64,000 nucleotides of DNA from Streptomyces pseudovenezuelae. Lineage in GTDB: Bacteria > Actinomycetota > Actinomycetes > Streptomycetales > Streptomycetaceae. A model generated the notes under the pieces. That model did not search any database and was not told the origin of the DNA. It saw only the letters and a list, made by a program, of their open reading frames with translations. Position 1 is the first letter of the stretch. Each line of letters opens with the position of its first letter. The stretch is taken from NCBI RefSeq assembly GCF_029892565.1, contig NZ_JARXVH010000003.1, positions 248,001 to 312,000 of the forward strand. The letters are read 5' to 3'. The position numbers and the translations under genes are program-made. This document shows positions 39,164-56,397 of the stretch, in pieces.

Positions 39164-39204
39164 GCAGCGGCGTCACCGTGTTCAGGTCACGGTGACGCCG
39201 CTGC
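39164..39204 (-). terminator. Strong 16-bp hairpin after Rieske-like gene
   Basis: Perfect arms GCAGCGGCGTCACCGT and ACGGTGACGCCGCTGC around nine bases; followed on the minus strand by AGTTTTG. First of two terminators in tandem. Confidence 0.75.
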
Positions 39205-39247
39205 GGGGGGAAGCACCTGCGCGATCTGTTACGACGGGGGAATCGCG

Positions 39248-39583
39248 TCAGGCACTGCGGGGGGTGGCTGAGATGGTCCGTAGGTTGGGGGCTTCCGGTT
39301 CCACCAGCCGATGGTCTCGCTGATCAAGGTTCACAAAGATCATTCCGTACCGAATCGCACATCGAACAGGCTGCGGCGCCCCCCGAGGCCGCCGCAGACA
39401 CCGATAGGCCCGTACGTCCTCGTCCTCGTCCCGCGTCACGACGACCGGCTCTCCGAAGACGGTCACCATCAGCGAGTCCCCGGGGTGGGGGATCGCGGTG
39501 ACCAGATCGATGAAGTGCCAGCCGGAGCGGTAGGCCGTGGCCATTTCGCGACGGAAGGAGCGGTCGTCGGGTGGAGTGGTCAT
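39248..39583 (-). CDS. Rieske-like protein lacking iron-sulfur ligands
   Basis: 111 aa; ATG overlaps the stop of the DSTW-repeat peptide gene (ATGA). YRSGWHFIDLVTAIPHPGDS, then VTVFGEPVVVTRDEDEDVRAY and YGMIFVNLDQ copy the backbone of the Rieske domain of ring-hydroxylating oxygenases. In a true Rieske protein a C-x-H motif and a C-x2-H motif bind the 2Fe-2S cluster. Here the region between reads YRCLRRPRGAPQPVRC: Cys62 and Cys75 remain, the ligand His residues are gone, and the loop is shortened. It is therefore not a normal Rieske protein. A structural or peptide-binding role is possible. High-G/C third positions and coupling to the peptide gene support a real gene. Confidence 0.75.
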   Translation of the reverse strand: MTTPPDDRSFRREMATAYRSGWHFIDLVTAIPHPGDSLMVTVFGEPVVVTRDEDEDVRAYRCLRRPRGAPQPVRCAIRYGMIFVNLDQRDHRLVEPEAPNLRTISATPRSA

Positions 39584-39837
39584 GACTCGGCGACCCACGT
39601 GCTGTCGCTCGGAGCGACCCAGGTGCTGTCATCCGGTGCGTCGGACGCCGTGACGACCCAGGTGCTGTCGCCGACGCCGACGGCAGTCACAGTGGTCGTG
39701 CGCCAGGTACTGTCGCCCGCCGTAGCACTGTCGGTCCCCGCAAAGCCACTCAGAGCCCCGAAAGCCACAACGGCGGAGAAGGCGGCGACTAGCGCCGAGC
39801 GAAGCATTCTCTTATGCATAGTCGGCTTCGTCCTCAT
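39580..39837 (-). CDS. Secreted peptide with four DSTW repeats
   Basis: 85 aa, ATG with GGGAGAGGTG upstream; an ATG six codons later is an alternative start. A positively charged N terminus and hydrophobic helix (SALVAAFSAVVAFGALSGFA) form a signal peptide, likely cut near residue 33-40. The mature 45 residues carry the tetrapeptide Asp-Ser-Thr-Trp at 42-45, 57-60, 70-73 and 78-81, each but one preceded by Gly/Asp/Ser and followed by Val or Arg. No Cys. Spacings shrink from 15 to 13 to 8. The gene is translationally coupled to the Rieske-like protein and divergent from three LuxR-type regulators. I know no characterised family with this repeat. It could be a signal, a modified peptide precursor or a surface peptide. 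Confidence 0.75.
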   Translation of the reverse strand: MRTKPTMHKRMLRSALVAAFSAVVAFGALSGFAGTDSATAGDSTWRTTTVTAVGVGDSTWVVTASDAPDDSTWVAPSDSTWVAES

Positions 39838-39950
39838 TTGAAGGTCACCTCTCCCCCGTCCGAATACGACGATGGCCCATTCCGGCACGTCATGGCCACA
39901 CAATCGATGCATCATGTTCCTGCACGTTCAGGACCCTGGGGGGTGGAGAT

Positions 39951-40934
39951 TTGACAATAAATGAGACTAAGCGGACACATCCTCACGGGCTGACCGACCT
40001 GTGCGCGGAAGGGCGTCGCCTCTACGGGAACGCTCTCCGGACGGGACGCGTCGCCCGTACGGATGTGGAACCCGCACCCTGTTTGATGGAGTTCGCCCTC
40101 CTTCATCCCGATCCTGACGACCCGACCTGGCTGCGTCCCGTACCTCCTTCGATTGCCCTCGCCCAGCGGCTCAACCCGATCGAGAGCGAGATCACCCAGC
40201 GCCGGCGGATGTCGATCGAACTCGCCGACGCTTTCGAGCCGTTCATGACCCTCAGCGCCCAGTCCACGGCGACCACGCACTCCATCACGGTGCTGGAGGG
40301 CCTGGACCGGATCAACGCGGCACTCGATCTGGCCACCGCCCAGTGCCAGACGGAGATGCTGACCGTGCAGCCGAGCCGTCGCCGGCTTGAGCACACCCTC
40401 GCCCAGGGCCTGAACCGCGACCGGCCGCTGATCGAACGCGGCTGCCGCATCCGCACCCTCTACCAGCACCCGGCCCGCTACAGCCCCGAGACACTGGCCT
40501 ACGTCGCCCAGTTCACCGAGGGCAAGGTCGAGTACCGGACGATCGACGAACTCGTCGAGCGGCTGATCATCTGCGACGAGACCGTGGCCTTCATCCCGAC
40601 CCGCGACGACGGGGAGATCGCCCTCGAACTCAGGCATCCGGGGCTCGTCCGCTACCTGATCAAGGTCTTCGAGTTCATGTGGAACCGCGCGGTCCCGCTG
40701 AGCGCCGGCGCACCCTACGAGACCGCCCCCGACGGCATCACCGAGATCCAGCACTCGATCGCCAAGCTCCTCATCGAGGGCCACGTCGACGAGGCGATCG
40801 CCCGGCGCCTGGGCATGAACGTCCGCACCTGCCGTGCCCACATCGCCAAGCTCGCGACGGCTCTGGGCAGCGGCAGTCGCGCGCAGCTCGGGTTCCTCAT
40901 AGCCCAGTCGGGGATCCTGAAGCAGGAGCCCTGA
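39951..40934 (+). CDS. LuxR-type regulator with PLD/TrmB-like middle domain (paralogue 1)
   Basis: 327 aa from a TTG just after GGTGGAG. N-terminal block HPHGLTDLCAEGRRLYGNALR, EPAPCLMEFALLHPDPDD. Middle block (about 90-240) GLDRINAALDLATAQCQTEM, ERGCRIRTLYQHPARYSPET, FTEGKVEYRTIDELVERL, DETVAFIPTRDDGEIALELRHPGLV has the look of a phospholipase-D-like/TrmB effector-binding domain without HKD catalytic motifs. C-terminal LuxR helix-turn-helix about 260-325 (EIQHSIAKLLIEGHVDEAI, RRLGMNVRTCRAHIAKLATA). No receiver domain. Divergent from the DSTW peptide gene across 113 bases, so it is its most likely regulator. Confidence 0.85.
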   Translation: MTINETKRTHPHGLTDLCAEGRRLYGNALRTGRVARTDVEPAPCLMEFALLHPDPDDPTWLRPVPPSIALAQRLNPIESEITQRRRMSIELADAFEPFMTLSAQSTATTHSITVLEGLDRINAALDLATAQCQTEMLTVQPSRRRLEHTLAQGLNRDRPLIERGCRIRTLYQHPARYSPETLAYVAQFTEGKVEYRTIDELVERLIICDETVAFIPTRDDGEIALELRHPGLVRYLIKVFEFMWNRAVPLSAGAPYETAPDGITEIQHSIAKLLIEGHVDEAIARRLGMNVRTCRAHIAKLATALGSGSRAQLGFLIAQSGILKQEP

Positions 40935-40973: not shown

Positions 40974-41951
40974 GTGACGACACAGCCACACCGGCACGGT
41001 CCGGAGGAACTGTGCGAGGAGGGCCTGGAGCTGTACGGCCGAGCGCTGCGTGCCGGGCACGTCAGCGGCGCGGACGTGCGGGCGGCCCCCTGTCTCGTCG
41101 ACTTCGGCCTGCTGAGCCCCGCCCCCGCGGACCCCGACCGTCTGGAGCCCGTCGCCCCGGCCCTCGCCCTGCACCGCAGGCTGAGCGCCTCGGCGGACCG
41201 CATCGCCGACGAACGCCGGCGCGAGCAACGGCTGGCCGAGACGTTCGAGCCGCTCATGCGCATCGACGGGCAGCGCACGGCCCCGACGGACCCGCCGGCC
41301 ATCGGCCTCATCGGCGGACTCGACCGGATCAACGAGGCCATCGCCGCGGCCATGGCCGACGCCTCCCGCGAGCTCCTGGCCATCCAGCCCTACAACGGCC
41401 GCAACCCCGCCTCGCGCCTGGCCAGGAGCCTGGGGCGCGACCAGGCCCTGCTCGACCGCGGCGGCCGTATCCGCACCCTCTACCAGCACACCCAGCGCCA
41501 CTCGCCGGCCGTGACGGCCCGCTACGAGCAGCTGGACGGCGACGCCGAGGCACGGACCCTGGACCAGGTCACCGAGCGCCTCGTCGTGGTCGACCGCACG
41601 GTGGCCTTCATCCCGGCCAACGCGGACCGCACGCTCGCCCTCGAAGTGCGCCACCCGGTCCTGATCGACTACTTCGCCATCACCTTCGACCGCCTGTGGC
41701 ACATGGCCGCCCCGATGTACCCCGAGACGGTCCCGCCCGCCACCCTCAACGGCATAACTCCCCGCCAGCACGCCATCGCCGCCCTCCTCGTCGAGGGCCA
41801 CACCGACGCCGTCATCGCGGAGCGCCTGGGGCTGAACGTGCGTACCGCGCGCGTGCACATCGCCAAGCTCGCGGCGACGCTGGGCAGCGAGAGCCGGGCG
41901 CAGCTGGGCTATCTCATCGGGCGGTCGGGGATTCTTGACCGGGAAGGGTGA
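40974..41951 (+). CDS. LuxR-type regulator (paralogue 2)
   Basis: 325 aa from GTG with TAGGA upstream, 39 bases after paralogue 1, same strand and probably same mRNA. Same three-part layout: RHGPEELCEEGLELYGRALR; GLDRINEAIAAAMADASREL and RGGRIRTLYQHTQRHSPAV in the middle; ITPRQHAIAALLVEGHTDAV, AERLGLNVRTARVHIAKLAA in the C-terminal helix-turn-helix. The segment DRTVAFIPANADRTLALEVR is shared almost exactly with paralogue 3, so the three genes arose by local duplication. Its last 38 bases overlap the convergent paralogue 3. Confidence 0.85.
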   Translation: MTTQPHRHGPEELCEEGLELYGRALRAGHVSGADVRAAPCLVDFGLLSPAPADPDRLEPVAPALALHRRLSASADRIADERRREQRLAETFEPLMRIDGQRTAPTDPPAIGLIGGLDRINEAIAAAMADASRELLAIQPYNGRNPASRLARSLGRDQALLDRGGRIRTLYQHTQRHSPAVTARYEQLDGDAEARTLDQVTERLVVVDRTVAFIPANADRTLALEVRHPVLIDYFAITFDRLWHMAAPMYPETVPPATLNGITPRQHAIAALLVEGHTDAVIAERLGLNVRTARVHIAKLAATLGSESRAQLGYLIGRSGILDREG

Positions 41952-45725: not shown

Positions 45726-46568
45726 ATGGCTCGCCGCCTCCGCATCCGGCACGTCACGCGCGTCGCGTACGCCCAGCCTGCCGCGTCCTCGCACAACGAG
45801 GTCCGCATGACCCCGCTGACGCTCCCAGGACAGACCACCCTGGACGCCCGGGTCACCGTCAGCCCGGCCGCCGCGACCTGGTCGTACTGGGACTACTGGG
45901 GCACGCAGGTCACCGGCTTCGACCTGATGGACCCGCACGCGGACCTCACGATCACCGCGTCCAGCCTGGTGGAGACGTCCCCACCGAGCCCGCTCCCCGA
46001 ACCGCCCGACTGGCCGGAACTGGCCGAACACACGGCGGGCTCCCGCCTGTTGGAGTACGCGGGCCCGACCATCCGTACGACGATCCCGACAACGCTCCTG
46101 GACAAGGCGCGGGAGGCGGCGGCCGGCCTCGACCCGCACGCGACGGCCCTCGCGGTCTCGTCCCTGGTCGCCGACCAGGTCTCCTACCTCCCCGGCGCGA
46201 CGAGCGTGAACACCTCCCCCGCCGAGGCCTGGGAACAGGGCGCCGGCGTCTGCCAGGACATCACCCACCTCACCCTCGCCATGCTCCGCGGCGTCGGCCT
46301 CCCGGCCCGCTACGTCTCCGGCTACCTCCACCCCGAACGCGACGCCGAACTCCACCGCCCCGTCGTCGGCCAGAGCCACGCCTGGATCGAGTACTGGGCC
46401 GGCGACTGGTGCGGCTACGACCCCACCAACCGCACCCCCGCCGACGAGACCCACGTGGTCGTGGCCCGAGGCCGCGACTACGACGACGTCACCCCGCACA
46501 AGGGCATCTACCGGGGGGTGGCGGGCGGCCCGCCGGACGTACTGGTGGAGTTCACGCGGGTGGCGTGA
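45726..46568 (+). CDS. Transglutaminase-like cysteine protease family protein
   Basis: 280 aa, one base after the alpha-E stop. N-terminal beta domain (RLRIRHVTRVAYAQPAASSH, NEVRMTPLTLPGQ), then the transglutaminase core with catalytic Cys in GAGVCQDITHLTLAMLR, His in QSHAWIEYWAGDWCGYDPTN and Asp in the same stretch (GYDPTN). No signal peptide, so cytoplasmic. Members may act as peptidases or amidases on the product of the ATP-grasp enzyme. Third gene of the operon; ends at a strong terminator. Confidence 0.93.
   Translation: MARRLRIRHVTRVAYAQPAASSHNEVRMTPLTLPGQTTLDARVTVSPAAATWSYWDYWGTQVTGFDLMDPHADLTITASSLVETSPPSPLPEPPDWPELAEHTAGSRLLEYAGPTIRTTIPTTLLDKAREAAAGLDPHATALAVSSLVADQVSYLPGATSVNTSPAEAWEQGAGVCQDITHLTLAMLRGVGLPARYVSGYLHPERDAELHRPVVGQSHAWIEYWAGDWCGYDPTNRTPADETHVVVARGRDYDDVTPHKGIYRGVAGGPPDVLVEFTRVA

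Positions 46569-53832: not shown

Positions 53833-56397
<2,565 letters not shown>

Follow-up and report, generated by a model that had tools for sequence, protein, structure and literature searches.

The window, that is the whole stretch of DNA analysed here, comprises 64,000 nt of Streptomyces pseudovenezuelae (GCF_029892565.1, contig NZ_JARXVH010000003.1, positions 248,001–312,000). It contains a small gene for a repeat-bearing pro-peptide, which lies 113 bp from the divergently oriented gene of a 327-aa protein, LA. The features of the locus, in window positions, are as follows.

39248..39583, minus strand: RSK (P0002), a 111-aa Rieske-like protein, whose ATG overlaps the pro-peptide stop (ATGA)
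39580..39837, minus strand: pro-peptide gene with four DSTW copies (85-aa ORF and orthologues)
39592..39606, minus strand: copy 4, DSTWV, residues 78–82 (ORF translation)
39616..39630, minus strand: copy 3, DSTWV, residues 70–74 (ORF translation)
39655..39669, minus strand: copy 2, DSTWV, residues 57–61 (ORF translation)
39700..39714, minus strand: copy 1, DSTWR, residues 42–46 (ORF translation)
39715..39837, minus strand: leader or signal-peptide-like region, residues 1–41, the most conserved part of the pro-peptide in an alignment of 24
39838..39950, no strand: divergent promoter region of the pro-peptide and LA genes, 110–127 bp long and mostly 113 bp in relatives
39918..39933, no strand: 16-bp palindrome TCCTGnACGTnCAGGA, the proposed LA binding site, in a conserved spacer
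39951..40934, plus strand: LA (P0003), TTG start, proposed peptide receptor (fold searches and co-variation)
40356..40358, plus strand: codon of LA residue 136 (LA136, Met here), which tracks residue 2 of the peptide unit in 152 of 152 receptors, and in 79 of 79 held out
40974..41951, plus strand: LB (P0004), a paralogue of LA in the same direction, 0–4 copies per locus, no co-variation with the unit
41914..~42951, minus strand: LC (P0005), a second paralogue, convergent and conserved, no co-variation, start codon uncertain

The pro-peptide translates as MRTKPTMHKRMLRSALVAAFSAVVAFGALSGFAGTDSATAGDSTWRTTTVTAVGVGDSTWVVTASDAPDDSTWVAPSDSTWVAES, followed by the stop. Its N-terminus is basic and continues into a hydrophobic stretch and an AxA-like site, as seen in the sequence. 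A preliminary description of this DNA had seen DSTW at residues 42, 57, 70 and 78 of a Cys-free peptide of the secreted type, with the motif rather than the spacing conserved; the translation of the minus-strand ORF bears out the positions and the lack of Cys, and the rest of that description is supported. All four Trp residues sit within the DSTW motifs, residue 5 of the unit is R, V, V and V in copies 1–4, and a 4-mer occurring at least four times arose in only 8 of 200,000 shuffles of residues 41–85. Among 95 distinct peptides of the family, 81 have residue 42 as the start of the first copy and 62 have Ala just before that copy; the tripeptide there is often VRA or ARA, which resembles a signal-peptidase site. 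The end of the last copy is the exact C-terminus in 51 of the 95. Judged by these sequences, the first and the last copy of such peptides would each have one end free without further proteolysis. Pro-peptide length, 85 aa in the window, ranges from 63 to 225 aa among the peptides listed for loci L032–L111, and 19 of the 95 distinct peptides have a single copy only. The 225-aa precursor (L092:8001-8678) carries 18 DSTW copies.

With the window peptide as query, matches at E ≤ 0.01 were found in 278 of 392 genomes of the genus. In a further scan, restricted to named genomes, 131 loci passed and 80 were kept, all from Streptomyces except one record, named Kitasatospora aureofaciens. Around these 80 named loci, full-length LA was present in 78, LC in 79, RSK in 77, ClpB in 75 and LB in 59, some of the stretches being cut by contig ends. 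A usable peptide was available for 79 of the 80, all but L110, and the Mantel and site tests were run on 73 of these, six being without full LA, LC, RSK or ClpB. Across the class, a sample of 296 genomes was searched; here LA matches at E < 1e-100 in 23 of the 28 genus genomes listed and, among the matches listed, in none outside the genus. The peptide profile matched, among the matches listed, in 22 of the 28 genus genomes (in G209 away from LA) and weakly (E 3e-4 to 0.01) in nine genomes outside the genus. In G209 (L160) and G327 (L159) the profile overlooked a repeat peptide with DPGW units adjoining LA, and with these recovered a unit peptide lies beside LA in all 23 LA-bearing genomes of the sample. 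The reading frame is kept in relatives, as had been expected beforehand: it is readable in 110 of 110 loci (L002–L111; 104, plus six with another start), the precursor of L110 running off its contig, and stops inside some genus-wide matches are taken for alignments that overrun the end of shorter peptides.

The copies are alike within a precursor and unlike between species. All copies share one 4-mer in 68 of 74 multi-copy peptides (92 distinct peptides), whereas 10,000 rounds of shuffling copies among peptides gave 10.5 on average and never more than 22. A fresh sample (L179–L258) added 60 new distinct peptides, and all 44 multi-copy peptides in it are homogeneous; the 62 of 63 homogeneous peptides of the held-out set overlap with the 74-peptide count, L002–L031 being in both. 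The search pattern itself demands D/N, S/T and W, and what is informative beyond it is that neighbouring copies in the 74 peptides never mix D with N or S with T, and that residues 3 and 5 agree. In most relatives the unit spans five residues, [DN][ST]xWx, with a looser residue 5 in the many-copy DSTW group that includes the window. In peptides with two or three copies, neighbouring copies are 90–100% identical at residues 1–5 (60 pairs), 2–15% at the six preceding residues and 9–45% after the unit (22 pairs). Over all peptides, including those with many copies, the flanks agree in 19–46% and residue 5 in 58%.

Comparison of motif with spacer and of synonymous with nonsynonymous change had been proposed as a check of the motif, and it turned out in its favour when the copies within one peptide were compared. 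At residues 1–3, 556 copy pairs show 438 synonymous versus 15 nonsynonymous codon differences (34% versus 2.3% per peptide), and 68 of the 74 peptides have at least one synonymous difference between copies. Synonymous drift with the amino acids kept indicates that selection, and not fresh duplication alone, keeps the copies alike. In many-copy peptides, residue 5 is variable and the spacers are partly alike; hence duplication contributes there, and the length of the mature peptide is uncertain.

Across species, the unit reads DSTWV, DSSWG, DTVWS, DSVWP, NSSWP, DTRWD, DPGWT and more. More distant relatives again have repeated units (DSGWN, DVGWG, DSGWT, DLGWN, DITW, DPGWG, DPGWT and DIAW), and the loci of 152 receptors hold 48 different 5-mers. 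The expectation that DSTW would be conserved in orthologues therefore failed to the letter, given that the motif changes between species, and held in another form, in that the copies change together within each peptide, a pattern more telling than plain conservation. Six of the 74 multi-copy peptides are mixed (L022, L032, L044, L058, L085 and L086), mostly at residue 3. The clearest exception to homogeneity is L085:8001-8309, with DSYWP, DSFWP and DSVWA. L160 has one DPSW among its DPGW copies. Outside the 74, L110:8001-8177 mixes DSKW and DTKW and its receptor has Val at LA136 and Gln at LA221; it is possibly an intermediate between two pherotypes. Another locus, L232, has four EISW copies, in which the unit starts with Glu and not with Asp or Asn.

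RSK follows the pro-peptide gene, with its start within a few bases of the pro-peptide stop in relatives as well, and is in turn followed downstream by clpB. Its identity across the named loci is about 85–98%. Cysteines C62 and C75 are invariant in 35 of 35 sequences, and Arg replaces both His ligands (C62-x-R64, C75-x-x-R78). The match to the Pfam Rieske family (E 0.0099) falls under the cut-off, and with a model of pLDDT 66.9 Foldseek found nothing better than E 0.4, the top matches being Rieske oxygenases. As both His ligands are absent, RSK was ruled out as a peptide-modifying enzyme. The conserved neighbours among those looked for are LA, LC, RSK and ClpB, and a conserved modification enzyme nearby, as is asked of RiPP precursors, was not found at the locus. 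Variation in LB copy number, with degenerate-looking LB remnants in several species, was noted at L045, L064, L083, L084, L098 and L108. An HSP70 gene, taken for dnaK, lies at about 54609–56321; in S. coelicolor, hspR/dnaK are presumably at SCO3668–3671.

AlphaFold2 was run on 68 sequences (60 LA, 8 LB or LC). The LA model (pLDDT 79.6, pTM 0.49) consists of a winged-HTH-like N-terminus, a long helix at 66–101, an alpha/beta region at 112–246 and a C-terminal HTH. Its Foldseek matches are TrmBL2 (5bpd, E 1.3e-14, with a loose global fit of TM 0.34 and rmsd 14), TrmB (3qph, 2f5t) and PLD-family nucleases. Like TrmB and TrmBL2 of Archaea, LA is thus predicted to combine a winged HTH, a linker helix and a PLD-like sensor domain, all three of which are present in the model within the limits of its pTM of 0.49 and the loose fit. 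Unlike TrmB, which has a sugar-binding domain according to the title of 2f5t, LA would have a further HTH, of putative LuxR type, at its C-terminus, and its ligand appears to be a peptide. A profile search retrieved TrmBL2 and DevR-type HTHs (DevR E 3.6e-5) with a profile that also holds LB and LC rows; LA itself scores 16.3 bits against Pfam GerE, below the cut-off of 23.5, which LB and LC pass. The putative C-terminal HTH would be a feature in common with LuxR-type regulators, but no autoinducer-binding domain was matched in Pfam here. Four LA paralogues elsewhere in the genome (L115–L118) have no adjacent repeat peptide among the ORFs listed.

LA co-varies with the peptide unit. Mantel tests of unit distance against protein distance, with partial tests on ClpB and 999 permutations, gave r = 0.547 for LA over the 73 loci, or 0.55 given ClpB, a value reached in 0 of 999 permutations. 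At the same 73 loci, r was −0.06 for LC, 0.036 for ClpB and 0.107 for RSK (0.101 given ClpB, 26 of 999), and over one set of 54 loci it was 0.066 for LB versus 0.519 for LA. LB and LC were rejected as peptide receptors because they do not co-vary with the unit. A column scan found that LA136 shares 0.91 of the entropy with unit residue 2 and LA221 0.94 with residue 5; for columns of LC, RSK and ClpB the five-best mean was at most 0.41, and none exceeded 0.5. All 59 loci with Ser at residue 2 have Met at LA136, and all 14 with Thr have Val or Leu there.

For a held-out test, 110 further loci (L002–L031 and L179–L258) were taken, from which we dropped 26 that were at least 99% like a training LA, two near copies of each other, L003 (cut LA), L238 (peptide missed by the pattern) and L232 (Glu-first unit), so that held-out receptors were <99% identical to any LA used before. 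The rule that LA136 is Met if residue 2 is Ser, and otherwise not Met, holds in 79 of 79 held-out receptors and in 152 of 152 receptors altogether. It also holds in 18 of 18 further loci scored by eye, which come partly from the same genomes as the 79 and were not added to them, and in the three single loci left out: Val with EISW in L232, Met with two DSHWP in L238 and Met with DSTW in L003. In the mixed peptide of L110, only one of the two copies fits. The two residues also fit in size (Ser with Met; Thr, Val or Ile with Val; one case of Leu with Ala).

Two other sites, LA88 and LA221, were chosen on the 73 loci, and both are weaker than LA136 on held-out data. Where residue 5 is Pro, LA221 is Gln in all 25 cases among the 73 loci and in 27 of 29 held-out receptors; where residue 5 is not Pro, Gln occurs at LA221 in 1 of 50 held out. 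LA88 is Ala with an Asn-first unit in 12 of 13 (73 loci) and 4 of 7 (held out), and with Asp in 3 of 72 held out. LA152 and LA153 were picked from a scan over all LA columns, uncorrected for their number. Of 19 near pairs with a difference at residue 3, 13 also differ at LA153 and 9 at LA152; where residues 1–3 are identical (48 pairs), the counts are 2 and 1. LA153 is Gly with Ile (6/6), His (8/8), Thr (22/25) and Val (24/28) at residue 3, Ala with Ala (14/19) and Gly (4/4), and either Gly or Ala with Ser, Lys and Arg. LA152 is Glu with Lys or Arg in 10 of 13 loci; given that it is also Glu with Ile (6/6), Val (18/28) and Ala (11/19), charge alone is no explanation. In the model, sites 136, 152–153, 180 and 221 lie within the predicted PLD-like domain and 88 in the linker helix. 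The pattern at residue 2, and to some extent that at residue 3, suggests packing of side chains, and co-variation at this level makes it very probable that LA recognises the peptide unit.

The divergent promoter region contains long runs of columns at 95–100% when the window is aligned with 77 relatives (78 sequences). Its palindrome occurs in its own genome, with at most one mismatch, 23 times forward and 23 times reverse (46), versus 14 and 11 (25) for a control pattern. A version two bases longer showed no trusted enrichment outside the locus in 61 genus genomes, among the matches listed. Since the palindrome is at most weakly enriched genome-wide, the locus itself is the sole proposed target, and no regulon is claimed. 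A search of 39200–40100 for sigma-70-like promoters or terminators found none.

We read the locus as a peptide-pheromone system with LA as the receptor, and put the probability of this reading at roughly 0.78, with export, processing and re-import as its inferred steps. The signal-peptide-like N-terminus would direct export of the pro-peptide, and signal peptidase and extracellular proteases would then free several peptides of 4–5 residues, here presumably DSTW(V). The peptide would return to the cell, probably by an oligopeptide permease, and bind the PLD-like sensor domain of LA, as the site-specific co-variation suggests. LA may act by way of its putative LuxR-type HTH; its first site would most likely be the palindrome between the two genes, and in this way the operon of pro-peptide and Rieske-like protein, and LA itself, would be autoregulated. 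Species would differ in their pheromone allele and carry a matching LA allele, as in other pherotype systems.

Several other explanations have to be weighed against a pheromone system. With a spacer of only 113 bp and signs that the cassette has moved between species, the match of peptide and LA might come from linkage and joint recombination with no recognition at all. In a tree of ClpB and LC, sister species indeed have different units, which means that the peptide–LA pair was probably exchanged, and the receptor sites follow the unit (pairs 11-0-0 for LA221 and 8-0-0 for LA136). To take out linkage, LA's own tree of 152 receptors was built with the 21 candidate columns removed. On this tree there are 22 switches at residue 2 and 22 at LA136, the two agree in 152 of 152, and 9 of 9 independent pairs on supported branches go together (p = 0.004). 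The best of the other LA columns is right for 117 of the 152, the commonest-state baseline being 108. The first 73 loci alone gave 7 and 7 switches and two supported pairs. The joint switches, the poor showing of other LA columns and the fact that RSK, equally close on the other side, hardly co-varies make linkage alone a most improbable explanation. For residue 5 and LA221, the tree of 152 has 3–4 switches, so that this link rests on few events.

Recognition leaves room for a different purpose. Co-variation speaks for recognition and not for what it serves, no target genes were found, and as many as 18 copies in one relative could suit a peptide whose main job is antimicrobial or lies at the surface or in the spore, with LA as a feedback or immunity-type sensor and no social signal. 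An extracellular function should, however, fix more than Trp and the first Asp/Asn, and instead residue 2, and less so residues 3 and 5, follow the receptor; one copy, as in 19 of 95 distinct peptides, is also little for a bulk peptide, and we regard such a job as unlikely. The adjacent, divergent genes would equally suit autogenous control by the nascent product, in which LA would meet its ligand, precursor or peptide, within the cell, whether or not export follows. This is more doubtful still, given the strongly conserved signal-peptide-like N-terminus, a first copy directly after the likely signal-peptidase site (Ala in 62 of 95) and a last copy at the exact C-terminus in 51 of 95. The preliminary description had suggested cross-links, ester links or metal binding by the Asp, Ser/Thr and Trp side chains of a modified peptide, and Trp and Asp/Asn do recur in the units (with one Glu, in L232) beside a coupled gene for a Rieske-like protein. 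The comparison lends this idea no support: Asn can stand in for Asp, residue 2 may be Thr, Val, Leu, Ile or Pro in place of Ser, many residues occur at position 3, and the changes at residue 2 go with changes in LA. The genes conserved alongside include no modification enzyme, RSK with its 111 aa and Arg for both His ligands has no catalytic domain, and ClpB is the only other enzyme conserved at the locus. A modified peptide of this kind is thus very improbable.

A pheromone system of this type can be compared with known ones. Multiple identical copies with unlike spacers in one secreted precursor are known from yeast precursors of the alpha-factor type, which act on a membrane receptor, whereas the system proposed here is bacterial and its receptor would be cytosolic. 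Passages of PMC10075063 give as the five criteria for RRNPP systems a small pro-peptide that is secreted by Sec and, as its direct neighbour, a cytosolic receptor of 250–500 aa that contains TPR repeats. Like RRNPP(A) systems of Bacillota (Rap-Phr, PlcR-PapR, NprR-NprX and AimR-AimP), the locus has a small pro-peptide (85 aa) directly beside a receptor of fitting size (327 aa), at 110–127 bp, and a short linear mature peptide is predicted. In contrast to them, LA has no TPR match in Pfam at E ≤ 1 and is predicted to have a TrmB/PLD-like sensor flanked by a winged HTH and a putative LuxR-type HTH, and the present family belongs to Streptomyces and has up to 18 copies per precursor. Some Phr pro-peptides of Rap-Phr systems hold several putative pheromones, as described in part of PMC11343458. 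It is likely that the family represents a class of linear-peptide quorum sensing of Streptomyces' own, unrelated to RRNPP, which combines tandem penta- or tetrapeptides, a LuxR-type receptor of TrmB/PLD fold and dozens of pherotypes as an exchanged cassette. We know of no such peptide and receptor gene pair in Streptomyces, nor of a gene for an imported peptide signal of development, and a search of open-licence literature returned no paper that we recognised as dealing with this peptide or gene pair.

Signals of Actinomycetota are typically small molecules, in the account of PMC10075063 as far as excerpted, and for Streptomyces an extract of PMC4748050 names gamma-butyrolactones, MMFs and other factors. 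A section of PMC11303876 states that in S. coelicolor the bald cascade is triggered by a quorum-sensing oligopeptide taken up through the oligopeptide permease BldK. That the BldK-imported factor is a product of the present gene family is only a lead, and that the family supplies an imported developmental peptide signal is speculative and improbable on present evidence. If the pheromone reading is true, a peptide signal with a mapped receptor offers a new handle on Streptomyces differentiation and antibiotic timing, the PLD-like domain is suggested as a peptide reader, and the species form a natural library of dozens of matched ligand–receptor pairs in which candidate specificity residues are already marked. 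In S. coelicolor, clpB is SCO3661 (PMC2687793, in part), and an insertion in SCO3664, annotated as 'regulator', raised actinorhodin more than 50-fold (PMC6585502, in part). By gene order, SCO3664 could be one of LA, LB and LC.

Some minor observations concern single loci and the surroundings. At L046, LA, LB, RSK, ClpB and the ATP-grasp gene are all split by frame breaks, which looks like poor assembly and not biology. A role in anti-phage defence was considered and dropped, as PADLOC gave nothing beyond a weak match to the HTH of LC (E 0.0056). Beside the locus lie genes for a circularly permuted ATP-grasp protein (PF14403; 43251–44795, plus strand) and a transglutaminase-like protein (45726–46568, plus strand), and an ATP-grasp gene is found near the locus in 25 of the 80 relatives.
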